Below are positions 14,301 through 62,200 of a stretch of DNA of 64,000 nucleotides, piece after piece (within the stretch, counting starts at the first letter, position 1; every line of letters starts with the position of its first letter). The DNA is from Branchiostoma floridae. Its lineage: Eukaryota > Chordata > Leptocardii > Amphioxiformes > Branchiostomatidae. Location: NCBI RefSeq assembly GCF_000003815.2, contig NC_049992.1, positions 1,048,669-1,112,668 of the forward strand, read 5' to 3'. The translations under genes and the position numbers were made by a program. The notes below the pieces were generated by a model. It ran no database searches, had not been told where the DNA came from, and was given only the letters and a program-made list of their open reading frames with translations.

Positions 14301-17300
14301 TGAAAGAAAGCCCCTCATAGACTCACGTATTCCTGTTCCCTCAATTTCAAGGCCATGAAGGTATGATGATGACTGAAGATCATGATATACCCATACCGGG
14401 ACAGTTCCCGACCGTGTAGAACTGAACCATACCGGGACAGTCCCGCCTGTGTAGAACTGAACCATACCGAGACAGTCCCGCCCGTGTCGAACTGAACCGT
14501 GCCGGGAGAGCCCCGCTTGTGTATAACTGAACCATACCGGAACAGTCCCGGACGTGTAGAACTGAACCATACCGGGACAGTCCCGCTTGTGTATAACTGA
14601 ACCATACCGGAACAGTTCCGTTCGTGCAGAACTGAACCATAACGTACACAAGACGAAAAGACCGAATATGTAGACGGATGCTGACGAGCAGTGACCACCA
14701 ATCATGTTTTCCCTATCCTTATAATGCATTTAATGGCAAATAGAAGCTGTCAAAAGTCACCTACCTGACGTTTCGTTCTCGAAAAACTAACACTGAGAGG
14801 GTAGCCCGGCTTCTAAAATGTCTATTCTCAACTTTTCGGAACTTTCTGACCACTGGAACACATGTGACTTGCATCCAAACGCAACTCGGTGACCTTTGAC
14901 CCTATCTGACAGCTACATAACAAACTTCTTTCTAGTGTTCCAGGCACCCAAAACAGGCTTGAAAGTCTGTTTTTTTCGACATAATAAAAAACCTACAACC
15001 CTTACCTGTAGAATACAGCTCCAAGATGCCAACATTTCCAAAGAAAAACACATCTTCTGATACTTTTAAAAATCAATCCTGTGGGGACTCACCGGGGACC
15101 TTCTGCGCAGCCGTCAATTAGGGGTCATTGCCCTGACGGATTCCAATTTGCAACACCTGACGGATGCTGACGTATGCTGACAAATGCTGACGGATCCCAA
15201 AAACCATCACGGATCTCAAAAAATGACGGATCCCACTTGCATCCGCAACGCATTCGTAGGTATCCGTAACTCTCATCGGTGGATACAAACACAGAACCCG
15301 TATACTCAGTACTTCGTGACGGATGCTAACACTGCATTCGTATGGATACTTACTTATAATCACGGATTCGTTAGTATCTGTAAGCCACTAGCTGATTCAA
15401 ACATTGTATTCGTATGGATACTTAGTTTTAACGCAAACGAAAGAATACGTGGTCAGGATTCTTGTTTATCAGCGAAAAGTCTTCAGATGCAGACGAATAC
15501 CAAGGATACGAATTTGCAACATCCTGACGGATGCTGACGGATACCAAAGATTACCAAAAATCACGGATCCCATACACATCCGTAACGCATTAGTTGGTAT
15601 CCGAAACTCGTGGTGGATGCAAACACGGAATTCGTTTGCTTACTTACTTCGTGGCGGATGGTAACACAGCTTCCGTAAGAATACTTACTTTTTATGTATG
15701 CGTGGCTAGCACTCTTGTTTTTGAGCATATATTTTATTTTTTAGATTGGTCATATCTTTCCCCCTTTTTGTACCTCGGACACCACAGTTTGTAACGTCAA
15801 TACAAGTGGGACAATCCACGTTACGCTAGATACCAGGATACTCGGATTCGTAAGGATGCAAAATGGTTTTTTTCTGCATTCGTGGCAAGATTACCAACAA
15901 TGCACTGCTCCAGTGGATTACTCCAGTGGAGGGGATTCCATTGGAGCAGTGCATTGTTGGTAATCTTGGGATATCTGTATTTTTTTGCATCCGTACATTG
16001 GGGCGGTGTATTGTGGGTAATCCAATCGTTGTCTCTCTGACCAATCAGACTGCATATCAGTCAGTTTAAAAATAAAGCGGAGATAGTTAGCGTTGTCCGT
16101 GAGGACCGCAATCTTTTTGTACCTCAAACTTTTTGAAACGTTGAACTCGGGATATGGATTTGTACACACGTGTGTGAACTTCTGTAGTAGGGTGATGTTG
16201 AGGCGGTGACCAAACTCAAGTGGCAGTCGACGGACGGGACGGCGATCGAGGGACTGAAACAGCCAGCCCTGTTTTGTAGTTCGGCGTCCTGGAGCTATTT
16301 TACATCACTGTCCTGCGGATCTCACGGCGAGGTATGTTTTATACAATGATTGTTTCCAAACAATACCCGCTTTGAATTCGTCTTTGTGACTATATTCCTT
16401 GTTGGCTAGTAGTTAGTAGCGCTTTTGGTATGCTTGGGCTGAACAGAAACTTATCAGAAAACGACATAACGGAGCCTTACAAAACACAAGTCACAAGCAT
16501 GATACTTGCTGAGTAACTGTTGACTTATTTGGGAAAAATTTGAATCATCATCAAAACAGTACTTGTATACATATATGTTTGTCTCAAGTCTGGTATTTAT
16601 TCGCATTCTGTTCCAACGGTGTTTACGTGTTTGTTTATATGCGACGTCTCGTACACAATGCAAAGTCCGGCCGGGGAAGCAGATCACACCTTGTCACTAA
16701 TTATGCAACGCTAGACTGTTTCTGCCGCGCCCTCCCGGGGGACTTTTTTGGTATGATAATGCGGAATGTAACGCTGATAATGGCGATACCACAATCAGAT
16801 GCATTTGTTCCTGTTGTATAACAAGCCAATCACCATTTCTTTTCATATACATCCTAATTACTTTGACGGACGCATCCATCAAACATGGATGCTTTAGCTA
16901 TCTCAAAATTTGATGGGATTATTCTTTCTCTTTTTCAGAAGGCGGGTCGACATTCTCTGGCCGTGTCAACAGCTGGGAGAACACTGGACTACAGGAAGGG
17001 CACAGAAGGAATTGAGCTGGGAGGGATCAGGGCGTAACTAGCCTGAAAAGAAGCGAAGCACTGTCACTAATAGAAAGGAGACTTTGTGCTGTTGCGAGAA
17101 GCTGTACATACTGATACTATAAGTCATGTTAGTTGTACTTTACAAGCTGGATTCACTATCTGTATCCTGTAGCCGGATGTGGAAATTCCTTAGAGTTGGA
17201 CATCGCGAAGACTTTGATTTGTAATAGAACAGATATTCGTAGAAGAAAATTAGCCAGACTCCCATGTCAGCTTTACATAAAAGTCAAATTGTATTCCCGT

Positions 17301-20300
17301 TTGATCCTATATTCTATTTGGAAGTATAAGAAGTCATGTGATATTGGCGGTTAAAGGATTCAACTTTCCCTTAACATAATCAGATAACAGGAACTCTCTG
17401 TACATACCTGGTATAACCCATTCTTGTTGCAATATTGTATCTGTATACATATCATGTGGCAGACAGGATTCGGCCTCGATGACATTACGTCGTTTAGTTC
17501 TTCTCAGGACTGGTTTAGAATAAGATTATTCTGTGCATTCTTTTCTATTTCAAATCGTGTTAGCCTTTTATAAGAAAGTAATTGGGCACACATGATATTG
17601 TGATTTGTCAAATGTGCGGAAAATTCATTAAAGTGACTTTGTATCTGCAGAAAATCCCGTTTTGGATTCTTTATGATCTGATCATACGAAGAAATCCCTA
17701 AAAAAACGACTTCGCATCCGCGGCAAATGCCGCATTGGGATTTCTTAGGATCTGACCATGCCAAATATACGAGGAAAATCCTATAAAAACGACTTCGCAT
17801 CCACGGCAAATTCCATATTGGGATTTTTTAGGATCCGACCATGACAAATATACGAGGAAAATCCTATAAAAAGGACTTCGCATCCGCGGCAAAGGCCGTT
17901 TTGGGACCCGTTCATTCCAGGTATTCGAAGAAATCCTTTGAAAATCGACTTCGCATCCGAGGGAAATACCGTTTGGGGATTCTTTGCGATCCAATCATTC
18001 CAGGTATTCAAAGAAATCCCTAAAAAAACGACTTCGCATCCGTGGAAAATCCCATTTGGGATATGTTTGAGTCTTTTCATTCCGGATCCCAAAAATCCAA
18101 ATTTCGGATATTTTAGGGATCCAACTCGAATCCGTTTGCATTCGCTAGCATTTGTTACAAATACGCAAATATCCCTGCTCGGATATGGCTACATCCGATA
18201 CCCTTTCCCCCAGTGGTAACAGTCCCGCCCGTGTAGAACTGAACCATACCGGGACAGTCCCGCCCGTGTAGAACTTAACCATACCGGGACAGTCCCGGAC
18301 GTGTAAAACTGAACTATACCGGGACAGTCCCGACCGTGCAGAACTGAACTATACCGGGACAGTCCCGACCGTGCAGAACTGAAACATACCGGGACAGTTC
18401 CGCCCGTGTATAACTAAACTATATCGGGACAGTCCCGCCTGTGTAGAACTGAACCATACCGAAACAGTCCCGCTCGTCCTCCTTGTCTTCCATGCAGTTC
18501 CATTCCCCGTCGCAAACACGGCTGGGGCTGTAGCAGCCTGCATCACCTGTACACACCCGTCTGTGTTTCTCTGGGCAGCCCGCAAACCCTGGAAACCCAA
18601 AAGGGGATAATATTATGTTTTTCAGATACAGACTTTTCTGCACTGTACACCTAGAGATGATAATTTACCATTAAGCCCTACTGGTTCACAAGGCCTCCTT
18701 GAACAACTGGTTACCGCCTTATATGCGCCGTACGTTCACATACTGCAGGGACAGGGCTATCCGGAGTTAAAGATTAAGTGTTTCGGATCTCCTAGTGGCA
18801 CCAAAGCCCCTCAGAGAGATTTATAGAAGATCCCTGGCATACTCCGACTCGCTCATCTGGAACCGACTAACACAGTAAGTTAGGACATTTTCTCCCTTTC
18901 AACCGTCAAAAGACTTTTGTCACGGTAAAGGACTTATGTCGGACGACTACGGACTCGATTCATGTTACGTTGTGTATCCTATTTTGAACGATGGAATAAT
19001 TATGATAGGACTCCAAATTGACTAATTATGTTAGGACTCTAAATTGATGTTTGATAGTATCTTTGTTTAATTTGTTTGACCCTGACCCCTCCCACTGATC
19101 ATGACCTCAACGAAAAAAGCGGCCGGCAAGCCGATTGAGTGTTCTCGAATAAAGAATAGTTCAAACAAACAATATACTATCATAACAAAAGTCCTGAGAC
19201 CTCATAGCTACAGAAGATACTAACAGATTTAATTTATAAATTTCTTTAACGTCTCCATCCCTCTAAAGCATCCGGACCAGACCAAATACCACGTTGGCAA
19301 AATGGCAGCCAGTAAAATCGCACCTGTGTTAACTAATATCTTCCAACACTCATTAGAAGGGGAAAATCCCTGAAGACTAGCAGTTTGATTCCTCCCTCCA
19401 TTGTATTTTATGGTAAAGTCTAATAAACAAATAAACATATGCGCCATTTTTTAAAAGGGATGTAGAGTGGTCTTCAGTAACTACGACCCTGTTTCACTGA
19501 CAGGTGTTTCCTGTAAAGTATACGTAATCGAAGACATTATCCACAGCCATGCCATAAAGCACCTTGAAAGGTGAGGAGCGCTCCCGGTGCCAGCCATATG
19601 GGAACGACAGGCCGGGCACGAGGGACTGGTCATGAGGGGCCGACTGTACCATTATACGTGTGTGGGGGCTTTCCTGACTGGGAAAAAAACAAATTTTCAA
19701 TAAATTTTTATAATCATTATTTTCTATCACTAGAGCAACCATTTTGTGATTCTCAATCATCAGCTCTTAACAAATGAACTTAATTACTCAAAATACACCC
19801 TTTAAGTATTAGAGAGGCTACGGTCACGAGAGGTCTCTTTAGAGTAATTAAGCGTATTTGTTAAAGACCGATGATTGAGAATCATAGAACAGATGCTCTA
19901 TAGTAATAGAAAATATCTAAAAAATTGATCGAAAATTTGTTTCTCACAGTTAGCAAGAAGCCTCTCGTGACCGTAGTCTCTCTGACCCCTATGCTAAGGG
20001 GTCTCTTTTGGGTAATATTAGTTCATTTGTTAAGAACTGATGATTGAGAATCACAGAATGGTTGCTCCAGTGAAAACATTATAAACTAGAGTTCGACAAA
20101 CACATCTCTTCGCCAAATAATCATGCCTTTACTTTGTATTTAAGACTTTAAGTTTAAGGTCTTATTCATGTATTACTAAATAGTAGCATGAACTGTGATC
20201 CTCACGAAATGCTCCCCAAAACAAGTCTGTGATCACAGATGACCTGGTACCCTGCCTGGTCAATCAGAATTTCATGCCTTCCAGAGGTGTTTGTCCCCAG

Positions 20301-20380
20301 TGTAACAGCGTCCAGCTCACAAGCTCCTCCAGCAAAACATCTGTGCAACAGCTGTGTCTATAGATATAGGTCAAAATGAT

Positions 20381-20458
<78 letters not shown>

Positions 20459-23400
20459 AACAGTTTATTTCTGTTAATTGGCCACTAATTACAACTAAAT
20501 GCATCTTTCCATGTAGATTATTATCTAAAGTACCTTTCAGCCAAAAATAATGCAAACAAGTTTGAAAGTCCTATCATGGAATTCAGTAGATTTCTGTACT
20601 TTCCTCATTAATTATGCAAATTAGCTGTTGATTTGAATAATTAGCATTACATTATGTAAGTCGTCACTTAGGCTATCTACCACTCAAAAATCACGACCAC
20701 CACCCCGACCAATCGAATCGGGATGTCCCCCGCAAATGTGCACACTCCTCTAGACAAGGGGACACCCCTCGACTTTCAAGGGGATATTCCTCTTGAAAAG
20801 GGGATGTCCTTCCCTTTATAAGGGGATGCTCCTCCGAAAATGGTATGTTTGCCGGGCATAGGGGACGTCCCTCCAACACCCCTGTCGGCTTGTGGAATCG
20901 GCCGCTAACCCGACAAATCGCTTCCTAGTTCACCTAAACCACAACACCCGCAACTTTCAACCCATCAGTGCTCTGGACAAACCTTACAGCTCGCAAGGCA
21001 AGGATATCTTTTTATTGAAAATTGAAGCATGTAGAAAATGCAGCCGCCCGCGCGGCAGACCATCACTTCTGTTCATTGTTTTAATGGCGGCGTATCGCAC
21101 GCCCGGCAAGCACAACATCGAGTTTTAGCCTAAATATATGCGTGTCTGTCGAGTTTTAAGGCCTCCCTCCCTTACACACATAAATGAGAGAAGTTTCTAA
21201 CACGATGTTAGTCGTAGTTATTGGTTATGGCCTGTCAAAAGGCCACGATGTTACATCAAACGCCCGATAACGACGGCTAACAGTGACAGAAACCGGCGCG
21301 AGTACGTGTGCTGAAGAGGGAAGCATGTCTCGACAAGCACACTGACATGTATCGGGCCATGAAGCCGCGTTGTACGAAAATACCCAACTACTACTAACCT
21401 CATTGTGTTAGAAACTTCTCCCGTGTACGTGTATTAGGGAGGGAGGCCCTAAATTTCGACAGACACGCAGATATTTAGGCTAAAACTCGATGTTGTGCTT
21501 GTCGGGTGTGCGATACGCCGCCATTAAAACACTGAACAGAAGTGATGGTCTGCCGCGCGGGCGGCTACATTTTCTACATGCTTCAATTTTCAATAAAAAG
21601 ATATCCTTGCCTTGCGAGCTGTAAGGTTTGTCCAGAGCACTGGCGGGCTGAAAGTTGCGGATGTTGTGGCTTAGATGAACTAGGAAGCAATTTGTCGGGC
21701 AAGCGGCCGATTCCACAGGCCGACAGGGGTGTTGGAGGGACGACCCCTATGCCCGGTAAACATACCATTTTCGGAGGAGCATCCCCTTATAAAGGGAAGG
21801 ACATCCCCTTTTCAAGAGGAATATCCCCTTGAAAGTCGAGGGGTGTCCCCTTGTCTAGAGGAGTGTGCACATTTGCGGGGGACATCCCCATTCGATTGGT
21901 CGGGGTGGACCACAGCATGTTCAGAACACAAGATGTAAAAAATTGAAGTTTTGCTGCAGTACCTTAGGAAGGGAAGCCGTTAGGGGGCCCACTATCATAC
22001 TCGACCTTTGTTATTCTGACCCCTACCCACCTACTAAATATTATCAGGATCCTTTCAAGGCTTCTCGAGTTATGCATTACACAAACAAACGGTAGCACAC
22101 ACTCGGCCCGCTACCGTCCTAACGGAAAATGATATGCCAACTATTTTTAAACACAACCTTCCTTTCTGCAAACGCTACTCAAATGCCAAATATCATGAAA
22201 ATCCATACACAGATTCTTGAGTTATATGCTGTTGGAATGGATTTATGAACGTTCCTCATTAATTATGCAAATTATCTGCTGATTTGCATAATAAGTATTA
22301 CATTGTGTAAGTCATCACTCATTCTATCTACATACCAAAAATCCTGATGATCCGTCAACACGTTCTTGAGTTATTCTCGTCCAAAATTTGAAAGGAAATC
22401 GGTGCCTGCAGTTCCCAAAAAGCCGCTAGGGGGTCCAAACTCATAGCACTTACTCTCTGTCCCAAGGGCTATCTACCACTCAAAAATCATGACCACAGCC
22501 TGTCCAGAACACGAAGTGTATAATTTAAAAGTTTTGCTGCAGTACCTTAGGCAGCCACTAGAGGGCCCATTATCGAACTTGACCTTCATTTTCCTGACAC
22601 CCACCCACCTACCAAATATCATCAGGATCCATTCAAGGGTTCTCGAGTTATCTTGCATACAGACAAACGCACTTACATACAGATCCCGCTACAGCACCGT
22701 AGGTAAGAGCTAGGTAAACCATTTTCGCACTTGACCTTCCTCTCCAAAACCACTACACACCTACCAAGTATCGTGAAAATCGCCCAGCTGCATTTTGACT
22801 TATGCTGCCCAAAACAAACCCCCAAAACATACCAAACTTGCTGCAGTACCGTAGGAAAACGCCAGGTAAACCGTTTTCTAACTTGGGATTCCTTTTGACA
22901 ACCGCTACACACCTACCAAAAATCACAAAGTTCCATCCACAATTTCTGGAGTTATTTGCTGTTGACCTACATACAGACCCAAGTCAGCAATCTCATACTC
23001 TTCTTGGCGAAGAGAAAATTGATTTCTCAGTTGGAGAAGATAGCCTATAGTTTCAGCCTTTCGTGACCGTAGACTCTTTGATACCTATGGGGGGTGTCTT
23101 TTGAGTATTTATTTATTTATTGGTTTGGCTGCACCGAACAACAACGTCTTTTGAGTAATTAAGCTCATTTGTTAAAAACTGATGATTGAGAATCACAGAA
23201 GGGGTGCTCTAGCGATAGAAAATTAAAAAAAAATAAATTGATTGAAAATGTGTTTTTCCCAGTTAAGAAAGGCCCCCCACGCGTATAATGGTACAGTCGG
23301 CCCCTCGTGCCCAGCCCATCGTGCCCATATGGCTGGCACAGGGAGCACTCCTTACCCCACTCAATTAACCCACATCTCTGAGGTTTTTCCAGCCAGTTTC

Positions 23401-26400: not shown

Positions 26401-29400
26401 CACAGTCCACGATGCCGTCACACACACTGCATTCTGGGATGCATTTCCCGCTGTGAGGACAAATGATCTCGTCCTTTGCGCATAGACGCTTTTCTGATGT
26501 AAAAAATGAGTTAGATTAACAAAAGTATATTCGATGCAGTGCATTATTTGAAATAGCAGAAGAGCTAAATATGGATCTGTTGTGCTTTCTAAATAATTCT
26601 ATAATGATAAGAAATCTCCGGCACTCCCAGTCCGATAATTGACACATTTGCTTGAAAAACAAAGAAGGATGGCCAAAGAGAGGATTTTTACTTAAGTTTT
26701 GCACAACGTAATATCTACTATAAACTTTTATACAACATAAACTAATTGGAAGTTAGAGCCGCGAAACATTGTAATGTAGCTATTTTGTCCTCCTTGCAGG
26801 CTGTAGCAAGGAACAGGAACGTGCAATACAGAGAGTCCAACAGCGGGCTCTACGGATGATCAGCCGAGCGGGCAGGCGCGATGTGCCCGACCTACCCTCC
26901 CTCCAGTCGCGACGCGAGGATGCTGCCGTCAGACTCTCTTCAAATAGACGTTGGAAGTTGACCATTCACTACATGACCTGGTCCCACCTCCCAGAACAAC
27001 TGCTACGGTACGTTAAATGCGAAACAAAAACACAGTCTCCATCCCCCCAGCCAGAACTAAAAGGCTTAAAAGACTTCAGAACTCTTTCTTGCATACGGCT
27101 GTCAATCTGTACAACAATACTATAGACACTTAATGTCAGGGATGCTGTATACCATTTTGATATATATTGTTTTTATGTACACATACGGACGGAGTCGGTT
27201 ATGTGTCTGTTGTAAATTCCAAAGCCATTCAGGCTACTACTATGTGTATGTTTGTTATGTTGAATCAATAAAGGAAATAAAATTGGAAAAAAAAAGTTGA
27301 GCTGGTCTCAATCATGATGTTTCTGACTTAGGGAGAAGAGATGCTGTTACAGATGAATGTAACCCGTAACCTTGAAGTGGCCTTTGGGTCACCCCTACGG
27401 TAACAGGACGTTTCGCCCGATGATTAATTTATGAAAAGATATGCCAACATTTTAAAGGAGCCTCTACGTTGAGTATGTGTTTGATCACAAAAAGAGTGAT
27501 GTTACCCTTTCGTGTAGCGTAGCACATCGAACGTCCTTTCAGGCCCACTTGGCACACTTCCGTGCCGACAGGTGCTGATAGAACATTTGCAAACACGCGG
27601 TTGTTAGAGTCTACACCCCAGACTATTCCGTCTCCCACAGCCACTTGTCGCAGATTTATCCCTGGTACGTGCACCCACTCTTCACCAGGGGAGGTTTCAT
27701 TCAGAAACGTCCCTGATCTGTGATACACGGAACCAACATCATCCACAGCCCAAACTCCTGCACTCCCTACCGATACCGACGCGAAGCAGCCACCAACTGA
27801 TTCCCAGTCGTACTTCGCTGTGTGAAGAAAAGGCGTTAAACAGAAAGGGTTCACTGGATGTTCCTGTCAACAACTTTCTTTGTTTTGCTTTGACGTCACT
27901 AAGACCTTTCCTTGCCTGTTCCGAGGCCTGTATTATTTGATAATCGTTCTCTGGCAGTAGTGTTCTGTGCGCTGGTACTTTTTCGACTACATTAACAAAG
28001 TAGAGGTTAGCATCAGTTGTTTGATATATTAAAGGATTTGTGTTTCAGTGTAGTGAATCAACATGTTTTTTTGCTTAATATTCAAATCGGCTGGGTATCG
28101 TACCGTAGTACAGTTACCTTCTGGGGGGCAAAACATGCAGAATACTTAAGAGCGAAGGGTATTTCAGCTAGGACTGCAAATGCATATTTGATGACTCTAT
28201 TGTACTGGTATTAATGCATTTATGTATGTTATGTTACCTGAAATTTCACAGTAGAAAGGTGCACGCCACACCTTGCCGCTCCTCTCAACCGCCCACAGCT
28301 GCCCAGTTACAGAACTGACGCTGATTTCTTTCATGTTTGCTGCTCCTACAGTTGACCATCTTACGTTTTCAGGCGTCTCTGGGCTAAAGTCTGCGGGGAC
28401 AGAGTAGGCAACACAGTTACGCCCTGGGTGTCAGTTTTTCCTACATCATCCGTTAATTTTTTTCCATGCGTAGAAAATAGTTTTTCTATTGGATAACGCC
28501 ATTAAGTATCATGTACATGACCATAAGTTACAATAGTTCGGTACCTTTCATAACTATGGTCTGTCCTTGCATAACTACGGTCTGTTCTTGCATAGCAAGC
28601 TGATATTCGGATCCAATGACCCAAACTGAATTCTTTCCGGAATGTATCCAATCTATTTCGTGCTTCCAGAAAAACGACTTCCGTAGTTTTTCGAAGCTGA
28701 AGAGCAAATTGTTGACAATATCAATATGAACTGTTTGCCAGCGAACCCCCGCTGTTTTACTGTTCCTGTAAACAGAAAAAAAAAACGTTTCAGCAACAAA
28801 TGCCAATTCTCATAATTCCACTGGCCGATGGGCGCCTTACGACCGCCGCAATATGGTGTTATGGAAGCCTTCAAAACAATGTCTTCGGACACTCAGATAT
28901 GTGTTCATACCTCGCGGATTACTGAAGGTGTAGTTAGTAGATCTCCTAAATTAATCACTTTTGCAAAGTCTTAGGATAGCCGATGACATCATAAGAGTCG
29001 AATTTGAATATGACTACATAGCTGTGGAGTGTGGTGTTAAAGTGTGACATATGAACTACCTACCCGTACGTTCCCACTCGGTACATCAAGATAGAGTGGT
29101 TATAGACCGCCCACACGCCCGCATGTCCCACTGAGATCTGCAGGAACCGCTCCGTACCGTTTACTACTTCCCATCCGGTGCCTACAGGACAAAGTCATGA
29201 TAAATTTCATATGTACATGTAAGATGTTCCAAAACAGGAGCAGCTTTTTTGTTGCCTTGACTCTTCATGTATAATCACGACAAACCTGCTAGCCTATAAA
29301 GAAAAATATGCATCACATAATAAGTGGTAACATGTTAGACAGATCCAAAACGACAGCAGTTTTGTCTAGCCTTTGAAGAAGAATTAATTACAAATTGGGT

Positions 29401-32400
29401 TTTAACCAAACTAGATACCCATACAAACTGTAATTCTGGGAATAGCTACCGAATGCAATAGCAAGGCTTAGAATTTTTGTCATTATACCTGCTGATATAA
29501 AAAAAAGTTGCAACACTGATTTCACTCCGGGCCGTATGCTTGAAAGTTAACGTTGAAACTACGTATACGTTTGTTGATTTCGTCTCTCCACCTTCTCATC
29601 TTGAGGAGCTGTTTTGGTGATACCCGTGCTTACCTTGTGGAGCTGTTTTGGTGATACCCGTGCGTACATTTTGGAGCTTTTTTGGTGATCCCCGTGCGTA
29701 CCTTGTGGAGCTGTTTTGGTGATACCCGTGCGTACCTTGTGGAGCTGTTTTGGTGATCCCCGTGCTTACCTTGTGGAGCTGTTTTGGTGATACCCGTGCG
29801 TACCTTGTGGAGCTGTTTTGGTGATCCCCGTGCGTACCTTGTGGAGCTGTTTTGGTGATACCCGTGCTTACCTTGTGGAGCTGTTTTGGTGATACCCGTG
29901 CGTCGCAGCGGTCTGCCGACGTCATCCAGAACCCACACCTGATTGGTTGCGGCATTGACGCTGATTTGTCTGATCCTGCCGCTGACCAACAGCCAATCAG
30001 ACGTAGTGTCTAGAGCAGCTGGAGTAGGTGGTCCTATATTGTGCGGTAAACCTCATACCTCCATGAAATATTTAGAGCTTTTGTAAATTTTATGCAAATG
30101 ACTTATACATTTACATGATTTATGCATGGTGATGTTCATCATTAACTAACGTACACATGTCACAAGTATGAAATTCTAATCATTAATCATTAAGCTGTTT
30201 TGCAATTTTCGTATACATTGTGCAGATCAGTTCATTTGCATATCTCTTATCTGTTTATGTGCCACCTGTCATAATTTACATGTGTTACATTTATTGAAAT
30301 CCAGTTATTGAACACAATGGAATTATACAATTTCCTCATTAATTATGCAAATAAAGACCTCATTTGCATAACATATATACTTATGAAAATCTCTGCCTAA
30401 GATACATGCATGCCTAAAATGGTGGCAATGAGTCGTTCCTTTCTGCAGTTATCCCCTTTGAGGTGTCTTGATAAAATGCCCCTGCAGTTCCACAATAAAA
30501 TGTTAGGGGGCTGCAACTTGCCCCACTTTGTCATGACGCTGAAAGCTATCCACTACTCAAATGTCAAGACCATAGCATGTTCGGAACAAGAGATACATTG
30601 AAGAAACTGCCATGATAGAATATTCTCAATAATTATACAAATGTACTTCTATTTTGCATAATTAGTATTATATTTTGTACAACTTTGTCTAGGATACCTA
30701 CATACCAAAAATCATGAAAATCCGTAGTTCCCTTCTTGAGTCATCCCCTTCAGAAGTTTTTGACAAACATGCCCCTGATATCCCAAAACTAGCCGCTAGG
30801 GGGACCAAACTAATGTCACTTCTACCTGAGCAGAAGAGCTCTGTAACGAGATAGCAAAAATGGAAGTTGCACTGTAGTAACAAAAATTACCAAGGGAAGC
30901 CGCTAATGGGACCAACGTCTAATCATTTTCAGCTTTCATCACACCCCACCAACCCACCAAGTATGAAACCAATCAACGCAGCCGTTCTTGAGTTATCTTG
31001 TTTATACACACACACACCTACACAAACATCCAGTTGATAAGATACGCCACAAAGCAGTTACTCAAGCAACCTGATGTGGTTTTGGGAACTGTCCGACTTT
31101 TCAGTTATATATACAGGGAGAGAGAGAGGGAGCTAGATAAATAAAAAAAATAAATTGATAGATGGATAGATAGATAGACAGATAGATACATAGACATAGA
31201 TGGATATAGATAGATACATAGATAGAGAGATAGATATGGATATAGATATAAATATAGATAGAAATAATAGAAAAATACTTCGTGTAAAGACATACCTAGC
31301 CTGTTGTCCACTGCCTCATACCGTGCTGAAAACCCAGCTCTGCGAATCACAAAATCCGTGATGAAGAAGACGTACAGACTGTGTTCAGCTGAGGTTATAG
31401 TGCTAGTCGACGAGTGAGCACAAGTGCCACACCAAGACAAGGATTTTTGCTCATAGGGGTCTACAACTTGTACATAGTCGTTACGGCAGTGCCCCAGGTC
31501 GTCTTGTGTATCGATAAACACAAGCGTCAGTTTGACAGCCTTGTGTGTATCCACTGTGATGCTCCACTGCTGATACACGTGGTTATGGTAGGGGTAGTGC
31601 GGGTAGTTCATGGACGAGAACGTGCCAGAATCTCCGGTCAGTTGGTGAATCCGTTGGTATCCTTGGCGATCTTATAACAGAAACGATTTCCGTTACTTCC
31701 TATCATCTGCGCCACGTACAGTAGAGGAAAAACAGTACTTCCCTTCATGAGTTTTCTTTAAGTATTGCTTTGTCATTACATTTATTCGAAACAGTAGTGA
31801 GTCTTGTTATCCTACCCCCCCCCCCCCCCCACACACACACACAATAATGTTTTTCATATGCGTACGTGGCTAGGAGCACGTCGGAAAGCCAATCTGAGAT
31901 TATTAAAGCTTAAATGACATGTGTCGAGCTTCTATTTTAATTAACATTATCGGGACACAAAAGAGCGCACTAAAATTAAGACGACCAGCAAAATATTGCT
32001 TCATACGTACCGTCTTCGGACATGTCTTGTTGATAATAATGGATGTTGAAACCAATTGCCGGTCGCGAGTTGTCTTGGAATCCATCACTGTGAAAATGAA
32101 TCGTCAAGACCGGAGCCATCGACACGTACAAGGGAGGTGGAGACCGACCGCAGAAGGTTTGGTAGAAGTCTGGAACATCATTAAAGTTCAGAGATAGTCA
32201 AATATAAACGTTGATTATCGGTAGTGATAAGAACCATGTTTCTAGCAAATAAAGTAATAGGCGCATAGGAGGCGTGTAAGAAGACAAAATAAGAATATTT
32301 TGTACTTGAGAACTGCAAGACAACAAAGTGACAGATAACAACCGGGGTCGTAGGTCGGTCGCAGATTAAATGCATGAAACACTCCGGAGGAGAGTGTTCT

Positions 32401-41400: not shown

Positions 41401-44400
41401 ATGTCAATGTTGCCGACTTTAAACTTCGTATGGACGGTTCCACAAAGTAATATAGTTTTTGTGCAGCATCTTTACGTGTGATATAAGACCCCTGCAATAC
41501 AGAATTCCAAGAATCCTACTCCAATAACATTACATAGATACAAGTCGTACAGAAACAATTTTAATAGTTTGTTACTGCGAGCCGCTTCTACTAACATACG
41601 TAGAACCTTGCAACTAATTAAAAATGAAATTCTTAACAGAAAAAAAGCAACCGATGTTCTTCCAAGTAAACTTATAGACGGGGAATCGGGTATCTGATCC
41701 AAAAGCTATAGTTGGCAAATTCAATGATTTTTTTGTAAATATTTGCCCCTCTCTGGCAAAAGAGATGGATGAAACAGATCGTTTTCCCACTTCATAACTT
41801 CAAAATTCTTACCCATCTAGAAGCTCTTTCGACGAACCTACGACAATAGAAATTACCGACAATAGGAATTACCTTCGCCAGATTGGCAAGGTTATGTTTT
41901 GAGTAGAGACATGATGTAGTGTCTCTATATGTAGGTCAACAGCATATAAGTAGAGTATCTGTGGATGGACATTCATGATATTCAGTATTTAAGTAGCGGT
42001 TGCTGAAACGAAGGTCCTGTTCGAAAACGGTTCAACTGGCGTTTTCTTCCGGCACTGCAGCGAGGCGAGTGTGTTTGTGTGTGTATGCGTACAAGACTCA
42101 AGACGTTGTGGATCGTCTTGAATGATTTTTGGTAGTTATGTGGAGGTTGGGAAAATGAAGGTCAAGTTCGATAATGGGCTAGTTACGGTATTGCAGCGGA
42201 GGTTCAAAAATCACGATTTTTGGGTAGTGGACACGTCTTTGGGCTTGGGGAAGTTGTGCAAGTTTGGGCCCCCTGGCGGCTTGTTCTAAACTGCAGTGGG
42301 TGATTATGTTTTTATGCTCTTAAATCAAGCAGATGTTGGTGGATTTGCATTTCTTTAGTATGTATATATCCTAGGTGATAATTAAAATCTTTAAATGTAT
42401 GGTATAAAAATCTGGGCTTGTTTGTTTGTGGACTATCTTCTTATGGTAGCAGAACGCAGTATTTATCCGAGCCCCCATCGTGCTGGCTCTGTAACCTATA
42501 AATAAGCTTTACCCACTTTGACGCTGGAAGTAATTTGGAATAGATATAAATGGGAATTTTCAACCGCTGTATACACACTTTCATGCAGCCCTTTAATGCT
42601 GGTAGATACTTTAGTAATACATTAATGACACCTTAAAGTCTTTGATCAAGACACTGTCCATTATTAAACCTTGATTATTTAGCGAAGTTATGAACTTTTC
42701 AAAAAAACGAACCCCCTCGTCCAGGCGAACTGAGCGCCCTGCTCTTAATACAAATTTTCCCCGAAGTTCTAGAGCCAGTAACACATATTTTAAGACACAT
42801 TGAGTAATGGAATTCGTGTCAGCAGACAACAAGAGATGTAAAGACCGCTATACACAGATGGGGATCCATGTGCTTTCACCAATTATCGTCCAATATCAAT
42901 ATTGCTGGCCTTCTGAAAAATCTTGGAAAAAGTAATTTATAAACGGATCGTGAATCATTTAGAAGTAAAGAATACTAGTATATATATTAGATTAACATCA
43001 ATATGGGCTTCGGAGAAAATACTCGACATACATACCGCTTTTACAACTTATTGACAAAATCACTACAGCCTTAGAAAATAACGAATACACAATAGAGATA
43101 TTTCTAGATCTTTCCAAGCTTTCGACACCGTAGACCACAACATACTTTTTAACACACTATTCAAATATGGCTTTACAGACTCCGATCCACTTTGGCTGGA
43201 AGACTACTTGAGTAATCGAAAACAGTTCGTAACTAATAAAGATGATATTTTTTTCCAAAAATATTAATGACTGTGCTTAGTTTCGGTTGTGTAATGACTA
43301 CTACTATTATTATAATCATTAATTATTATCATTTCTATTATCGTTATTGCTTAGATTCTTTATATTTAGTTTATAGGGAGACCCCCTGCATATATATATA
43401 TGATTAAAAATGTATGTGCATTAAACAATGTATGTGCAATAAACAAACAAAAAATATTACACAGAAATAAGGGTAAATGTATCATTATTCAATTTTGTAG
43501 AATTTTCCAACAACTTTAGAGCAATATAAACGTTTGATAACAGTCAGCATCATTTAGTAATATGGTCTACATGATGTATATATCTATGGAAAGTGTCATT
43601 CATATAATTCACCAGTGGTTTCCTTACCCTCAAAGTAGATCTTGAAAATGTCGTCAGCGTTAGGGTAAAATGTACTAAGGACGAGGTGGACAATGTTGGA
43701 AGCAGCACTGAGTTCCGCCGGAAAGTTCGGTCCTGTTAAAAATTTGCGAATGCGGAATTAGCATGTTTTGTTAAGGTAGTTAGAAAATATACACGAACTG
43801 TTAGGCTTAGTTATTGAAGAGAGCTTTTTGTGACTTATAGGTTGGCGGTCCTTTCTTATTTAATACAATTTCAAACTGTAAATGTTTAATACTGTCTTTC
43901 AGATCAGCAACAGATTATCACACAAAACTCGCCCGTTAATTCATTGAATCGGGACAGGGGCCGATACCGACTTCTGACAACCTTTGACCCGTTGCTGACG
44001 TCAAAATTCAGAAAGGTGTCTAAGCAGTGCTGAAGAAATCCAGATGACTTGTTGGTGAGTTCACTAAAATTCTGTTTTTTCGAAAAAAAGATACCAAATG
44101 AATTGGATTTGGACATCCCTTGACTTCATAATTGGAATGCCATGCAATAGTACTGAAAGACAACAATAAATACAAGTTTTTTATCTATGAAATTCGTTGA
44201 GCGATCTGGTCACCATCCTAGTGGACTGTCGGTGTTAACAAACAAAACATAACTTGCAAGGTAAAATTGAGACAAACCTACCAGTGTACATTCCCAACAA
44301 GATAGGGATGCCGAGCTCTTCATCATAGACGTCTAACCAGTTACGATTATTGTCTAAAGAAAACGTCTCTGGTGTCATCTTCACCCCCTCGCCTACGTTG

Positions 44401-50829: not shown

Positions 50830-50877
<48 letters not shown>

Positions 50878-50878
50878 C
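50755..50878. repeat. CTCT/TATA/CTAT microsatellite
   Basis: Compound tract ending in about 25 CTAT-type units. The three overlapping open frames rich in LSIYLS are translations of it. Confidence 0.97.
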
Positions 50879-51461: not shown

Positions 51462-51561
51462 NNNNNNNNNNNNNNNNNNNNNNNNNNNNNNNNNNNNNNN
51501 NNNNNNNNNNNNNNNNNNNNNNNNNNNNNNNNNNNNNNNNNNNNNNNNNNNNNNNNNNNNN
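51462..51561. other. Assembly gap (100 N)
   Basis: A round-number gap of unknown true size, at the end of the duplicated upstream region. Confidence 1.
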
Positions 51562-53075: not shown

Positions 53076-53263
53076 TCACTCATAATCAGCGGGGTCAGTC
53101 TTGGGCTTCACCACGGCGGGTTTGGACTTCTTCTTCTTGACGAGGTAGTGCGCCAGGGAGCCCAGGCCGGCCAGAACCAGCACCCCTCCCACCGCGCCCC
53201 CGATCAGCACCCCGAGGTTCCCCCCGCCGGCCGACCCCCCGTCCTCCCCGGCTCCCGGGATCT
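53076..53263 (-). CDS. Gene B terminal exon: transmembrane helix and short tail
   Basis: 188 bp, phase 1 in, ending TGA. A Gly/Ser-rich stalk (EIPGAGEDGGSAGGG) is followed by the helix LGVLIGGAVGGVLVLAGLGS and LAHYLV. A KKKK stop-transfer cluster and a tail ending KPKTDPADYE come next. There is no kinase or SH2-type motif beyond a single tyrosine. The acceptor and helix-encoding 5' part of this exon are multiplied in the 130-bp array upstream. No polyadenylation signal was identified in the following 200 bases. Confidence 0.85.
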
Positions 53264-56200
53264 CTGCGGGGGGTAAAGGTTAAAGGTAAAGGTCATTATT
53301 ACAGAACCAGCACCCCGCCCACCGCGCCCCCCATCAGCACCCCGAGGTTCCCTCCGCCGGCCGACCAGCCGTCCTCCCCGGCTCCCGGTGTGAAGCCAAA
53401 TCCCTGCGCCGCCAAATACATGAGAGGTCAGGTGCGCTAGCATGGATTTGGCAGATACAAGCGCCAAATTTGTGCACCGTGCCAAATGCCTGAGATATAC
53501 GGTGTGCATGGGGGTTTCGAATATGACATATATTTTGATTGGCTAAATGGTAACACTAAATACAATGATTACTTTAAAATATTTCAATCCAATCAATACA
53601 AAGCTAAATTTTTCCAAGTTATGGACAATTGCACTGAAGAAAAAGGATTGGTCGTCCATTTTAGCGTCTAAATCGTATTGATTTATTTAATAGTAATGAC
53701 ACCGAAACCACAGGTCACCTCTGATGACCTTTTATAGCCTCACAGAACATAGCACCTAATTTGGACTGATATACAAAGCATTATATTTGTAAGCAGTGCA
53801 TTAGCAGCTCATATATCAATATATTTACTATGGGCACAATTTTGTTGTGTTCTATTTTCTTTTCCGTTTTAGGTAAAACGGAGAGGATCTAATGATCGGT
53901 AACGTTTATAACTGTTACCTGTCATAACTCAACCTAGAATGATTCTTTGAAAAAGTTACATTTGAATATGACAGGTCAGCACATGATAGACAATGGACAC
54001 TTACAAGAATAACACACACTTGTGCACTGGACCAAGAATTATGATCAACTTCTTTTATTGCCTTGTGTGACTAAAAATATAGTAATAAGATAGTTCAGGG
54101 GCGCCAATTATAATTCATTATGCAGATGGTGGCCAGTTCCTTCACCTTGGTCGAAATCGGGGTCTATTCTTCTTACATTGTTCTGATACCTGATATGATA
54201 TGATATAATGGCAATGACAATGACATAACGACAGTCCTTCCCCCATTGCTCGGCGTGTGACCAGAAGTGGTGATCTGGTCATAGTCATACACTGACCCTG
54301 ATTTGCTCATTTTTACACGCTTTGCTAGCCAAATAATGACACAAACATATGTTTTATGTCCCTGCTGTAACTGTTTCTGATGGCTCTAATATCGGAACAC
54401 TACGACTAAGTTGCTGTTGTGGTGCGCGCCAAAACAGTACCATGTTTTCCCGCTGCATCTCATTATCTTAAGGATTGCTGCTGTGGTGAGCGCCAAAACA
54501 GTGCCATGTTTTCCCGCTGCATCTCATTATCTTTAGGATTGCTGTTGTGGTGCGCGCCAAAACAGTATCATGTTTTCCCGCTGCATCTCATTATCTTAAG
54601 GATTGCTGCTGTGGTGCGCGCCAAAACAGTGCCATGTTTTCCCGCTGCATATCACTATCCCACTTCATACAACTAAGTAATATAGGCAAATTCATATTCC
54701 TTATGAATTTAGACAAACCTTTACTTATAAAGCATATCATATATTTTCAACATACTAACTTCATGTATCTCTTGTTGCGACCTGTACTGAACACAGTGGG
54801 TATGTATGTACAATGAAGGTCTCCATGCATTCATTATCTATTTTTAGGATTGCTGCTGTGGTGCGCGCCGAAACAGTGCCATGCTTTCCCGCTGCATATC
54901 ATTATCTTAAGGATTCCTAAAGGGTCTCTATGGAGTGTCCCAATTTTCAATCCCATGAAATCAATGAAGGCAAATTGCTCACTTGAAAGGTTCCCTTTAA
55001 ATGCATGTATTCATATAGTATTAAATTGTGAAATAGTCAGTTGAATTTAAAACAAGGAAAGTTGTTGAAAAACAGGTTTTTCAATATACAAGTTTGTCGA
55101 ATCGGCTACTACAAAACATCTGTTAGCTTTTACAAAGGTCGTTGCCATAGTAATCTTCGCTGCGAAATACTTGCTCCTCCCCTGCATTGCGCAGCCGCAG
55201 TACCTGACCTCTCACGTATTTGGCGGCGCAGGGATTTAGCTTCACACCGGGATCTCTGAGAAGGGTAAAGGTTAAAGGTAAAGGTCATTATTACAGAACC
55301 AGCACCCCGCCCACCGCGCCCCCGATAAGCACCCCAAGGTTCCCCCCGCCGTCCTCACCCGCTCCCGGGATCTCTGAGAAGGGTAAAGGTTAAAGGTAAA
55401 GGTCATTATTCCAGAACCAGCACCCCTCCCACCGCGCCCCCGGTCAGCACCCGAGGTTCCCCCCGCCGGCAGACCCGCCGTCCTCCCCGGCTCCCGGGAT
55501 CTCTGCGGGGGGTAAAGGTTAAAGGTAAAGGTCATTATTACAGAACCAGCACCCCGCCCACCGCGCCCCCGGTCAGCACCCCGAGGTTCCCCCCGCCGGC
55601 CGACCCGCCGTCCTCCCCGGCTCCCGGGATCTCTGCGGAGGGTAAAGGTTAAAGGTAAAGGTCATTATTACAGAACCAGCACCCCTCCCACCGCGCCCCC
55701 GATCAGCACCCCGAGGTTCCCCCCGCCGGCCGACCCGCCGTCCTCCCCGGCTCCCGGGATCTCTGCGGAGGGTAAAGGTTAAAGGTAAAGGTCATTATTA
55801 CAGAACCAGCACCCCTCCCACCGCGCCCCCGATCAGCACCCCGAGGTTCCCCCCGCCGGCCGACCCGCCGTCCTCCCCGGCTCCCGGGATCTCTGCGGAG
55901 GGTAAAGGTTAAAGGTAAAGGTCATTATTACAGAACCAGCACCCCGCCCACCGCGCCCCCGATCAGCACCCCGAGGTTCCCCCCGCCGGCCGACCCGCCG
56001 TCCTCCCCGGCTCCCGGGATCTCTGCGGAGGGTAAAGGTTAAAGGTAAAGGTCATTATTACAGAACCAGCACCCCTCCCACCGCGCCCCCGATCAGGACC
56101 CCGAGGTTCCCCCCGACGGGCGAAACCGCCGTCCTCCCCGNNNNNNNNNNNNNNNNNNNNNNNNNNNNNNNNNNNNNNNNNNNNNNNNNNNNNNNNNNNN

Positions 56201-59200
56201 NNNNNNNNNNNNNNNNNNNNNNNNNNNNNNNNNNNNNNNNCATGTACTTTTATTAGTTTGTATCTCATATCCGACAAACCGTGACGTTAAGGGTTACCGT
56301 GTGACCTTTGTACCTAACGTACGAGCTAGGCAAGAGCAGACAAATTTACAATATGTGGTAGGTTCTTTAACGTTCTCGAGATGTGACTGTCCTCAAATGT
56401 TGGCGATGTGGACCCTAGGCAATGTCGTCTATCAAAACATTCTCATGATCAAGATGTTTCCAGCTTCCACACCTTCGTCACAGTCGGTTCCCTCCCACCC
56501 CTCGGTACAGGTGCAGGTGTAGTAGTCCGGGCCTTCCTCAGGTGTGTCCAGACAGGTGCCGTCATTCTGACAGGGGGCCTCTGAGCAGGGTCCTGTAGAT
56601 AGTCACATGTTTTAATATTTGTCAACATTTATATTCGTTTTGTAGGAGCGGTGCCCATCTCCTTTTCCATAGCCCTTAGGCCACACACTCCCATAATCTC
56701 GCTCTCATGAGTGCTTGGGAGAGAAGCTAGTATAATCATTCATTCTGCAACAGCTATAGACATGATGTCATGAAGGCAGTCTGTATTTTGTCACGTTTTA
56801 GCACTCGTGGCGCTGAAAAGAGGACTTCTTTACCCGGATCTTCACAATGATTTCCAAAATGATTTGTTGTTCAAAGTGGGACACAAATATTGAAACACTG
56901 TCAGTGTCAGTAGTGGGACATGATCATTGAAGCATTCCTAACAATAGGAGCTGAAAGTGTATCTGGGCCGGGTGTAACGCTTAATAGTCCGTGCTTTAGT
57001 GAAGTACATGTACTTGTCATGACACATAACATAAAACAGTTCACTTCTAGCCACAAACATCCAAACACTGTCAGTGTTAGTAGTGGGACATGATCATTCT
57101 AACATTCTAACAATCGGAGCTGACTGTGTATCTGGGGCGTAACGCTTCACATGGCCGTGCTCGTGCTTCAAGTGGAGTGTATTGTACTTGACATGACACA
57201 TAACACAAAACAGTTCTCTTCGGGCCACAAACATTGAAACATTGTCAGTGTCAGTAGTGGGACATGATCATTGAAGCATTATAACAATAGGAACTGACTG
57301 TGTAACTGGGCTGTAACGCTTCACGTGGCCGTGCTCGTGCATTAAGTGGAGTGTATTGTACTTGACATGACATGTAACATAAAGCAGCTCTCTACGGGCC
57401 TCTTCAAATATCAAGGACAAAGTGAAAGAGAGAATTTAACGTCCTGGTTTCAAAAGGTTTAAAAGGACCCTCAATATGTCACCTCCACTTTTATCCATAT
57501 GTGTGTTGGGTTCTTTAACCACTACAACATCGCAGAAATAGCTCTAAATTGATAACAATCACCTATGGAATGGCATTATGTCGTTATATATATCAGCTGA
57601 CTGAAACAAACAAAAATCGGAACAAATTTCCAAACAACCCAACCCTAACCTTTACCTTAACCTAATAAATAAAAATAAAATAAACCTCTCATTGTACATA
57701 CTATAGTCTTAAGATGTTTATACTACAGATGCTGTAGACTCTGTAGTCTAATTATGGATATTATAGATAACATTGCTTTTTTCGTGTTCTTGCTCATCAG
57801 GGAAACTTTGTAATATCTGGGTAGCCTTGGTCGTATTTTGATCACCACTGAACTAATAGAAAGGATGAAGAGATAAAACCGCGGGAAAACTCACTGTCCT
57901 GGCAGATCTCTCCCACCCATCCTCCTGCGCATGTGTCGTTGGGGCAGTGACCTGTGACCCTGTCGCACGCTACGTCATCCAGGCAGTGGCACGTCTCGGT
58001 GCAGTCCTCGCCGAACTTTCCCGCCTCACATTCTGAAACGAGATGTATAATCATTACGCTCATAATGATAAACGACATATCTACACATTCTTATCATTCT
58101 AATAAACTAGATATATAATCTTTATCATCATAATGAGTAGATATCTTAAAAGAGATATGTTATCATTTTGAGGCCTCAGCAAGACCAACTAACATATCAA
58201 ATACCAAGACAATCCAAACAGGTATTCTTTAGATATTGTGTTATAAAATCACCTCATTCGCTTTGCTTATTTGGTGATTTTATTCGATACTTAAAGGAAA
58301 TGACCTAGCCTTATGACACTATGTACACATCGGAGTGGGTCATTGACCCTTAATCATCACACAACCGTTGAGGCGCCACATAGCGGAATCTACCAGTTCT
58401 GCACTTACCCTTAGTAACGTAAAAAATGGTTAAATGGAAAATGTCACTGTCCTTTCAATTAGGGTTAAATGTTTTTTTTTTTAATTAATCACTTTCGAGG
58501 AAGCGAAACTAGTTATGTGTTCATCTTCTCCTTCATCTCAAAGCATGCAGTACTAATAAACTGAACCAGAGTGTCAGGATAGAACTGCAGGTGCTGATCA
58601 ACATTCTCATAGATAGATATATTAGAGTAAGAAAAAAACGAGCTGTGTTCGTCAGGCTAGACCCTACTCTTATACATGGTGTGGTGAATTTGTAAGCTCT
58701 GTGTAAGTAGTGAAGCTTTCTTATCTTAAGAAAGCTTCATGATACACACAGAGAGGCAAAGCGAGCAGTCAGAACTCACCTGTCTGACAGTCGCTTCCCT
58801 CCCACCCCGCATCGCACCCGTCATCACAAGCCCCCGTCACCACGTCACACTGCTCCTTACAGTTACAGTCCTTCAGACAGTTCACTCCGAAAGTCTTACC
58901 GTCACAGGCTACAGAAAGAAGAAACAGTTAGTCACCACGTCACACTGTTCCTTACAGTTCACTCCGAACGTCTTACCGTCACAGGCTACAGAAAGAAGAA
59001 ACAGTTAGTCACCACGTCACACTGTTCCTTACAGTTCACTCCGAACGTCTTACCGTCACAGGCTACAGAAAGAAGAAACAGTTAGTCACCACGTCACACT
59101 GTTCCTTACAGTTCACTCCGAACGTCTTACCGTCACAGGCTACAGAAAGAAGAAACAGTTAGTCACCACGTCACACTGCTCCTTACAGTTACAGTCCTTC

Positions 59201-62200
59201 AGACAGTTCACTCCGAACGTCTTACCGTCACAGGCTACAGAAAGGAGAAACAGTTATAATTATTCACCACGTCACACTATTCCTTACAGTTCACTCCGAA
59301 CGTCTTACCGTCACAGGCTACAGAAAGAAGAAACAGTTAGTCACCACGTCACACTGTTCCTTACAGTTACACTTCTTCAGACAGTTCACTCCGAACGTCT
59401 TATCGTCACAGGCTATACGAATTTTAAAAAAAATTATTACAAAACTGTGATACAGTCATACCGTCCACTCACAAGAGAGCCACGTTCATTTCAAAGGGAA
59501 TTCAAAGTAAAATATAAAATCACCAGGTTATGATTGAATGAATGAAGGAAGGGAGGAAGGAAGAAAGGAGCCTTACGATCGCGGCACTCCGGCGGCTTGA
59601 AGCCGATGTAGCAGGAGCAGGCGTACGGGTCCTGGATACAGAACAACCTCCCGGCGCAAGTCTCGCGAGAGTCGGTCTCGTCCGAGCACTTGTACTCACA
59701 GTTCAAACCGAACCCGTTGGTTCCGCAGGCTGAAACGGGGGAAAAGATACATGTGCAATGTTAAAGACTCTCTTGAAAGTTCGTCTGTGTTGCTAAAAGT
59801 AATTTTCGCTCAAAGCTGAACTGTAGTTGCCTACAGAATTTAAATCTTAATCCAAGGAAGAACAAAGACTGGAGTTGGTTTATCAAGTATTTTGAACTTG
59901 ATCAAATTAAAAAATTTGTAATCAAAGGCTGCTGATTGGTGCCCGCCGAATCATTAATAATAATAGCCTTTATTGCACATTCATGCCCTATCGGGCTAAG
60001 TACAGGCATATAGATACAAAAGGTACGTAGTAATGCAGTACACATGGTTTCTAAAACATGGATTTTAAAACTAGTCTAATACATTTGTTCGGCTTCTTCT
60101 CGTTTCTTAGTAATGTTGAATATGTAGCTTGAGATATGTGTTTGTATAATGTCGTTCGATCAAAGCTCATAAGAAAAATGAATTAATATTAACAAGCAGG
60201 ACTGGTCAATATTGGGACCTGTGCCGTGATAAAGCGTTCAGCAGAGTCGGAGTTCTAGGACGCAGGTTCGTCTCTGCATAGGAGAATAAGAACGGCCTAC
60301 CTTCGTCACACGTATCCCCCATGAAGCCAGGCGGGCACATGCACCTGCCGTCAGACGGGTTACACACGCCGCCGTTCTTACAGTCGGGACAGTCCCGGTC
60401 GCACCCCCCTCCCCACTTCCCGGCGGGGCAACCTGAAGGGCGACAAAGGAGCATTATAGTAAACAAGGGGGTTGCTTCACGCTGCACTGCATGGCTCGGT
60501 AGATCTTATGGTCGGTTTTCACCAAGGAGCGTCAAAAATTTGACAGATGTCCCAATAATCTCCAATAATCTTTTCATAATATCAATGACGGATTTTTGTG
60601 ATCGCACATCAGCTGTAGTAACAAATGGTCATCATTCGATGGAAATGGGGCCTCATCATCAACATTTGAGATAGTCCCTCAAACATATAATTGGTACAAT
60701 GTCGGCCACCACGGTGTTGGCGCTACACATTTTCGCGGCTTTACGATAATGAATTGGTGAATTAATTGTTTATTACGTCAATGTCATTGGAAGACAAACG
60801 TAATGTAGCAGCCTTCATTGCCTTGCATGTAGCATGTGTAGTCGTCAAAATACTTAATGGCCACTCTAATGCGACCTGGTAATACATTGCACTCTTCCGA
60901 TGTTCAGCGGTTTTACATTTGAATCGAGTTACCTGGTATTTAGACCTAAGGTTTTAAGCGCCAGATTATGCCAAACAACCACGAACTGTTTACTCCCAAC
61001 GATGAGCCTCATGATGGTCTGACCGGAACCTGGCCGGAAATTTCAAAACTTACTTTCGAGTAGAAGCTATTTATGCGTACATTTTCAGCTACACTAACCC
61101 AATTGTTTCCATGGCAATGGGTTAAGGTTAAGGTAGTCCATCTAACGTGCAATGTGTCACCACTGTACTGGCGCTACACTTTTTCCGACAACTTTACGGT
61201 AATGCGAAATAAGCACGAGCCGCTTACTCCTGACAATGAGCCTCATGATGGCCTGCTCGGTCGCGCTCCTCTCCTCCTCCGTCCGGTAACACTCGAACAC
61301 GCCGGTGGCCTGGGTCCCCACGCGGTCGATGGTCAGGGTCAGGCCGGACTCCCCCGAGATGATGGACCCGTCCTTACGCCAGGTCACCGGGCCAGAACCT
61401 GGACAAAAAATACGAAGATTCATACAATCATTTTCAAGTAGAAGCTGTCTGTGCCTATAGTGTTATTTTTCAGTGTTGGATGTAAACAACTTAGCATTTT
61501 GTTTCTCTATAATACAAAAAGTAATAGTATCTCCAACAACTAGATAGAATTTGGGAACGTTTCATCAGTGACACTGAGCAAGATCTGTTAACAGGCAGTG
61601 AATCATAAGTCGTTTTGTTTGTTGTTTGTTTGTTATTTTTTTGTTTGTGAGAATAAACAGTAAACAAACCTCCTGTGCTGTCTGTCATCTCCAGCACCAC
61701 CTCGTCCTGCACGCTGACTGTTTGGGTCAGCAGCTTAGGCCGTATGATGGCTGGAGGGGGAAAAATACATTTCACACGGGATTTTCTGGACTAAGCATTA
61801 AAAAAAAGTCATTTACTCTCTAACTGAACTGTGTGTGTTTTAATCCTACCATAGTAATCATCTGTATCTATTATAACACATAGCCATTGCGTTTCTAACC
61901 TAGGTGTTCTTAAAGCTATCTCGTGAGGATTTTCCTACAGTATTCAGTGACAATTAGCTCTATGATGACAGACCCAGAGGCCCCTATTCGATACTGCTGC
62001 AATTGGCTGCCACTAACTGTAAACCGTCAATGGACACCATCATAATCTTCCAACTCTTGTGAACTAAATAAACTCAGACCAGGATAATTCCTCCGTCTCA
62101 GTGGCATCCGATATTTGGACGGCGAGATGTCAACAGTCCTGCAGCCGTTTGTTTAAAGTTAGTGTTAAGGTGATGGGTGGGTTAGGGTTAGAGAATCTAA

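Follow-up and report, generated by a model that had tools for sequence, protein, structure and literature searches.

The window analyzed here, a stretch of 64,000 nucleotides from the amphioxus Branchiostoma floridae (contig NC_049992.1, positions 1,048,669 to 1,112,668), carries two modeled genes, both on the minus strand, and a series of tandem arrays, several of which are built from the edges of exons. In four of these arrays (A, C, F, and E) the repeat unit, of 35, 34, 130, and 77/95 bp, respectively, contains the splice junction of a phase-consistent modeled exon, involving two donors (those of an LDLa and of a tectonin exon) and two acceptors (those of an EGF exon and of the last exon of the gene with a Tie2-like ectodomain), distributed over both genes. 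An earlier note on this DNA had described two donors and two acceptors of this kind, together with a fifth site bearing a 21-bp duplication, and that picture stands, the latter duplication being the one that abuts a donor at 28544-28594; the array at 14391-14641, with which the range given in the note opens, touches no recognized exon, and the LDLa donor array is in fact the one at 18219-18477. The arrays have the structural features of the amphioxus intron/exon boundary duplications already published as “mirages,” of which they are four further examples.

In gene 1, modeled from approximately 63.4 to 53.08 kb, exons with a weak Ig likeness and EGF exons are accompanied by a hydrophobic segment and a short tail. 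When joined, the EGF exons yield a match to the angiopoietin-1 receptor (Tie2; 2gy5) with an E value of 5e-24, and this match takes in the EGF exon bearing array E. Gene 2, modeled from approximately 46 to 18 kb and perhaps on to 9.6 kb, contains CUB, Sushi, tectonin, and LDLa exons. Exon models were derived from domain-like open stretches, splice-site scores, and phase agreement, giving 26 exons (4,288 bp) and 49 junctions, of which five (9630, 26367, 30033, 38154, and 63201) are weak or were placed by eye; an exon near 9.7 kb was left unscored. The splice-site matrices follow a general metazoan consensus, and all scores are relative to that consensus. In a Pfam search with 20 stretches, five were without a match and the last exon had a chance-level match only, while several LDLa, tectonin, and Ig matches lay below the curated cut-offs; a PDB search with the joined tectonin-region exons returned no matches.

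Tandem repeats were called over the whole window by Tandem Repeats Finder (TRF), whose 49 rows were merged into 32 arrays, none of which lies wholly inside a modeled exon. Four of the 16 arrays with a period of at least 20 bp cover a modeled junction (18219-18477, 28544-28594, 29600-29903, and 58877-59415), as do none of the 16 with a period below 20 bp; array F (55247-56140) is a fifth only if it is joined, across an inserted element, to the exon-bearing copy at 53263. None of the unit lengths of the junction arrays (34, 35, 77/95, and 130) is divisible by three; that of the exon-internal duplication, 21, is. The features are collected in Table 1.

Table 1. Junction-associated repeats and the inserted element, in window coordinates
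Feature	Position	Strand	Description	Called by
Array B	14391..14641	-	Second locus of the 35-bp family; no exon recognized	TRF
Array A	18219..18477	-	35-bp unit: 18 nt of LDLa exon 3' end + 17 nt of intron	TRF
Site D	28544..28594	-	21-bp in-frame duplication within tectonin-region exon, ending at donor 28545	TRF
Array C	29600..29903	-	34-bp unit: 29 nt of tectonin exon 3' end + GTAAG	TRF
Array F, exon side	53172..53388	-	One copy with exonic end cut by the element, plus exon-bearing copy (acceptor 53263)	
Ginger1-like element	53389..55246	-	1,858 bp, inverted ends, CCGG duplication; splits array F	
Array F, main part	55247..56140	-	130-bp unit: 38 nt of intron end + 92 nt of last exon	TRF
Array E	58877..59415	-	77/95-bp unit: 22 nt of intron end + 55 or 73 nt of EGF exon	TRF
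Degenerate single donor-junction duplicate of exon 61228-61398	60968..61026	-	59 bp aligned, 80%, 33 exonic bp, E 3.2e-10	

Anatomy of the donor and acceptor arrays

Array A consists of seven full copies and one partial copy, with the putative used donor at 18460, in a phase-consistent exon whose LDLa match (E 0.019) falls under the Pfam cut-off. GT is retained in six of the seven full copies, and the last copy stops three bases short of the junction. Array B is 84-91% identical to array A, so that a single 35-bp family, whose unit contains the near-palindrome CGGGAC-T-GTCCCG, is found at two places 3.6 kb apart. A segmental duplication giving rise to both was rejected, as only a 13-bp match (E 0.36) is found outside the arrays, and so was hairpin-driven expansion as a common cause, as the 35-bp family stands alone in folding clearly better than shuffled sequences (z of -4.57 for A, -2.54 for B, 0.82 for C, -0.57 for E, and 0.09 for F, with one 130-150-nt segment per array). 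Array C, in gene 2 like array A, has nine copies, eight of them with GT, and its putative used donor lies at 29872; the exon matches Tectonin with an E value of 0.0016, under the cut-off, copies C1, C4, and C8 are identical, and the deep copy seems to retain a decayed donor. Site D, in the same gene, reaches its junction by one intronic base.

At the acceptor side, array E holds seven acceptor copies, of which the one at 58908 is presumably in use, and the eight copies of array F were located in the same manner, through a pattern that contains AG, so that this dinucleotide is present by construction; the spacing of the copies leaves no full copy missing in either array. The shorter, 55-nt exonic form occurs in four of the seven E copies, which have in common an 18-nt deletion between AACTGT repeats. 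Copies E4, E5, and E6 are identical and the edge copy is diverged. All six upstream copies, if spliced in, would bring in an early stop. No source for the 22-nt intronic tract of the unit was found within five mismatches in the window outside the array.

In array E, the copy lying deepest in the intron matches the exon from the exon's first base onward, and the sequence that precedes it is not detectably the 22-nt tract of the units, since in two comparisons 97 of 765 and 101 of 765 controls aligned equally well; the acceptor at this position (59412) scores 3.0, versus 13.2. The exon boundary may thus, judging from these letters, have moved from the deep edge of the array to one of its copies. 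A rival reading is that duplications arose inside exons and were later made intronic, with a new site within the unit taking over and the old one being left at the deep edge. The last copy of array A, which ends so close to its junction, is in line with such a migration of splice sites, which we nevertheless consider improbable: the deep copy of array C with its apparently decayed donor is what ordinary duplication predicts, the far edge of array F falls in an assembly gap, and a short AATAATT match persists between the two flanks of array E. A rule by which the deep edge of an array coincides in every case with the junction was also discarded, for it applies within three bases to A and E, not clearly to C, and the corresponding edge of F is not visible.

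Array F adjoins a gap of 100 N (56141-56240), and its copy number is therefore not fixed by the assembly. Copies F2 and F3 are identical, while edge copies are diverged. All seven upstream copies that carry an acceptor (two partial copies being left out) would, if spliced in, lead to a stop; between 53263 and 56022, four of these seven keep the reading frame through a short hydrophobic stretch as far as three successive stops, TAA TAA TGA, and a transcript ending in such a copy is predicted to encode a Tie2-like protein that terminates without a cytoplasmic tail. The array is split by an element flanked by a 4-bp CCGG target duplication, whose inverted ends start with TGTGA and are identical at 47 of 60 positions over 60 bp, the first 45 bearing two differences as read from the alignment rows. 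These ends resemble those described for Ginger1 transposons, which mostly generate 4-bp CCGG duplications, have TGTNR ends and inverted ends of approximately 40-270 bp, encode a Gypsy-integrase-like transposase, and have been reported from lancelet, hydra, sea hare, and aphid (PMC2836005); the likeness includes inverted ends of at least 40 bp, and the element is shorter than the approximately 2.6-7 kb given there for full-length Ginger1. The element also holds a 64-bp tandem array of its own (54411-54659). Its insertion in an exon-derived F copy fits the dispensability of such copies.

The gap beside array F also evokes the question of whether copies could have been gained or lost by misassembly of heterozygous reads. 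Copy numbers of the PGBD5 repeats are reported to differ between assemblies (PMC3902484), and errors near tandem repeats have been reported for amphioxus huntingtin (PMC2206037). An artifact of this kind is nonetheless hardly credible as the origin of the arrays, since the copies are set apart by substitutions and by indels that some of them share, array F has been entered by an element that bears a target duplication of its own, and the PGBD5 repeats are described as having been confirmed by re-sequencing (PMC3902484).

Copy relations and the parallel with amphioxus mirages

Identical copies, as found in C, E, and F, are what turnover in tandem would produce; a pattern of homogenized inner and diverged edge copies fits E and F, though not C. 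Copy diversity in the exonic and intronic parts of the unit is 0.130/0.157 in A, 0.211/0.090 in B, 0.044/0.107 in C, 0.022/0.015 in E (without its edge copy), and 0.030/0.035 in F; the exonic value is somewhat the smaller of the two in A, C, and F but the larger in B and E, which gives no consistent sign of selection.

This bears on the idea that the copies are functional splicing modules, serving as alternative donors or acceptors, with upstream F copies acting as last exons that would yield a tail-less receptor. The retention of GT in most copies of A and C, and the open frame of the four F copies described above, are compatible with such a role. A human minisatellite is reported to supply several splice donors (Cuin and Porter 1995, cited in PMC2572611). 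Within amphioxus, intronic exon copies and a truncated cDNA have been reported for VCBP3 (PMC2632668). Yet the unit lengths shift the frame, the upstream E copies introduce early stops, the diversity among copies reveals no consistent constraint, and reverse-transcription PCR (RT-PCR) on globin genes suggests normal splicing (PMC3087553); we thus hold a functional role of the copies to be very improbable.

Mirages were described as minisatellite-like duplications of intron/exon boundaries in the amphioxus globin genes BflGb6 and BflGb9 and in Adh3, with units of 10-72 bp in Adh3 and 150-160 bp in the globins (PMC3087553). The mention in the earlier note of minisatellites spanning exon-intron boundaries at an amphioxus Adh locus was thus well founded. 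In BflGb6, inner copies are reported as homogenized and edge copies as diverged, the Adh3 data and the globin RT-PCR suggest that mirages leave splicing undisturbed, and intron gain from mirages was proposed in the same paper (PMC3087553). Repeats of 60 and 108 bp at splice sites have also been described in lancelet PGBD5, in a paper that cites Adh and troponin C as well (PMC3902484). The arrays described here resemble these cases in that units of similar size span a donor or an acceptor, splice signals are kept in many copies, and copies turn over in tandem. They differ in lying in other genes, in being four within one 64-kb window, and in that one of them is split by a transposon; splicing, in addition, is here deduced from sequence.

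Other systems offer partial likenesses. In the Rogers model of intron gain by tandem duplication across AG/GT, as cited in the globin paper (PMC3087553), a segment with splice signals is likewise duplicated, whereas here it is existing introns that are lengthened. Human variable internal tandem repeats are also minisatellites, with units averaging 30 bp, some of them at exon-intron boundaries, but are said to alter splicing in recent segmental duplicates rather than to form silent intronic copies (PMC2812944). In amphioxus VCBP3, complete or partial exons with splice sites are found in introns and are similar to the neighboring exon, although in the available parts of that paper they are not described as minisatellite arrays (PMC2632668).

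The arrays of the window are, quite probably, mirages with the following origin: a segment lying across a splice junction underwent tandem duplication, multiplied into the intron, and stayed silent in the messenger RNA (mRNA). The exon most likely came first, since the exon copy encodes domain sequence, as judged from weak matches in the LDLa and tectonin cases and from the Tie2 match in the case of the EGF exon of E. The initial tandem duplication of a short segment across the junction would create a minisatellite, whose copies may then multiply by slippage or unequal exchange and accumulate on the intron side. In exon definition an acceptor is paired with the donor closest to it, and the splice site of the exon-attached copy would for this reason stay in use and leave the mRNA unchanged, while the remaining copies, spliced out as intron, could drift, homogenize, or take up transposons at no cost. 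Duplications internal to an exon, in turn, would change the protein and persist only if in frame, as at site D. An over-representation of junctions could come about if GC-rich exons are where seeds originate and only those seeds that extend to a junction persist.

Several observations weigh against this account. The exon models are our own, built from domains, phases, and splice scores alone. Array B shares the 35-bp unit of array A and yet has no recognized exon. The putative donor of array A scores 4.7, and three other copies score higher (6.3, 6.3, and 7.7; two more score 2.9). The most diverged copy of array C is an inner one, copy 7, and not an edge copy. In three of the five arrays (A, C, and F) diversity is somewhat reduced in the exonic relative to the intronic part, which leaves room for weak constraint. 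Finally, random placement of whole arrays within the window leads one to expect 2.59 that cover a junction, against the 4 of 15 observed (P 0.24), and no enrichment is seen in this model.

Placement of arrays relative to chance

The latter result forms part of a set of null models, all of which are post hoc, having been chosen after the arrays were seen, and which concern 15 long-period arrays, the GATA-type microsatellite at 31157-31262 being left out. With whole arrays as the objects placed at random, counting F raises the observation to 5 of 15 (P 0.093), and restricting placement to the gene span gives 4 of 9 (P 0.105) or, with F, 5 of 9 (P 0.021). If what is counted is an array with one edge inside an exon, P is 0.068 in the window, 0.018 in the gene span, and 0.0025 in the gene span with F. 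Placement of single units, which models the founding segment, yields an expectation of 0.95 in the window, with P(>=4) of 0.011 and P(>=5) of 0.0016, and of 0.61 in the gene span, with P(>=4) of 0.0013 and P(>=5) of 0.00006; in all unit models, P(>=5) counts site D, whose junction is reached by a single base. Masking the other array copies, with no GC matching, changes these values to 0.0136 and 0.0019 in the window and to 0.0016 and 0.00009 in the gene span. Matching GC within 5% raises the expectation to 1.38 in the window (P(>=4) 0.027, P(>=5) 0.004) and to 1.20 in the gene span (P(>=4) 0.009, P(>=5) 0.0007). Including the microsatellite as a sixteenth array, whether the five weak junctions are kept or dropped, makes little difference, P(>=4) being 0.008 to 0.012 for units and 0.19 to 0.27 for whole arrays.

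The statement in the earlier note that chance placement is unlikely is consequently upheld by the unit-based models and not by the placement of whole arrays in the window. Coincidence would mean that ordinary minisatellites, favored by GC-rich DNA, happen to overlap exon ends, the junctions themselves being irrelevant. The whole-array results are in agreement with this, as is the higher GC content of exons (0.549 versus 0.401); array F alone provides about half of the GC-matched expectation (0.57-0.61) and is thus weak evidence on its own. Coincidence is, however, unlikely, given that P ranges from 0.0016 to 0.027 (window) and from 0.00006 to 0.009 (gene span) in the unit models, that no short-period array touches a junction, and that the same pattern has already been published for other amphioxus genes (PMC3902484, PMC3087553).

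A few further features of the window deserve mention. Two adjacent CUB exon pairs (43619-44557 and 44804-46030), 63 and 70% identical, look like an older duplication. A long interspersed element (LINE)-type sequence, whose endonuclease and reverse transcriptase domains do not share a reading frame, occupies 4022-6518 on the minus strand. Four tandem arrays at 10339-13833 have TRF units that, by eye, resemble two related pairs, of 162/157 bp and, in reverse orientation, 129/134 bp, and they are perhaps pieces of one dispersed repeat. An Rfam search at gathering scores returned no matches.

Possible implications for amphioxus gene structure

A broader process can also be envisaged, in which DNA in this lineage is duplicated preferentially at exon edges and splicing neutralizes the event by moving the boundary to one of the copies, so that exon ends would steadily turn into intron and splice sites would migrate. 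We regard this as a doubtful, if conceivable, scenario; if it were true, array E would represent a case caught in the act, its former acceptor having been left behind at the outer end of the array. A literature search, which missed most subscription papers, found no genome-wide test of mirage enrichment.

The presence of four arrays within 64 kb suggests that junction-spanning minisatellites may be frequent in the genome and not just oddities of individual genes. Were an excess at splice sites to hold genome-wide, such arrays would constitute a testable source of intron growth, of splice-site movement, and perhaps of new introns. Exon definition, too, could then be tested on a natural system, because near-identical competing splice sites adjoin one another within such arrays.

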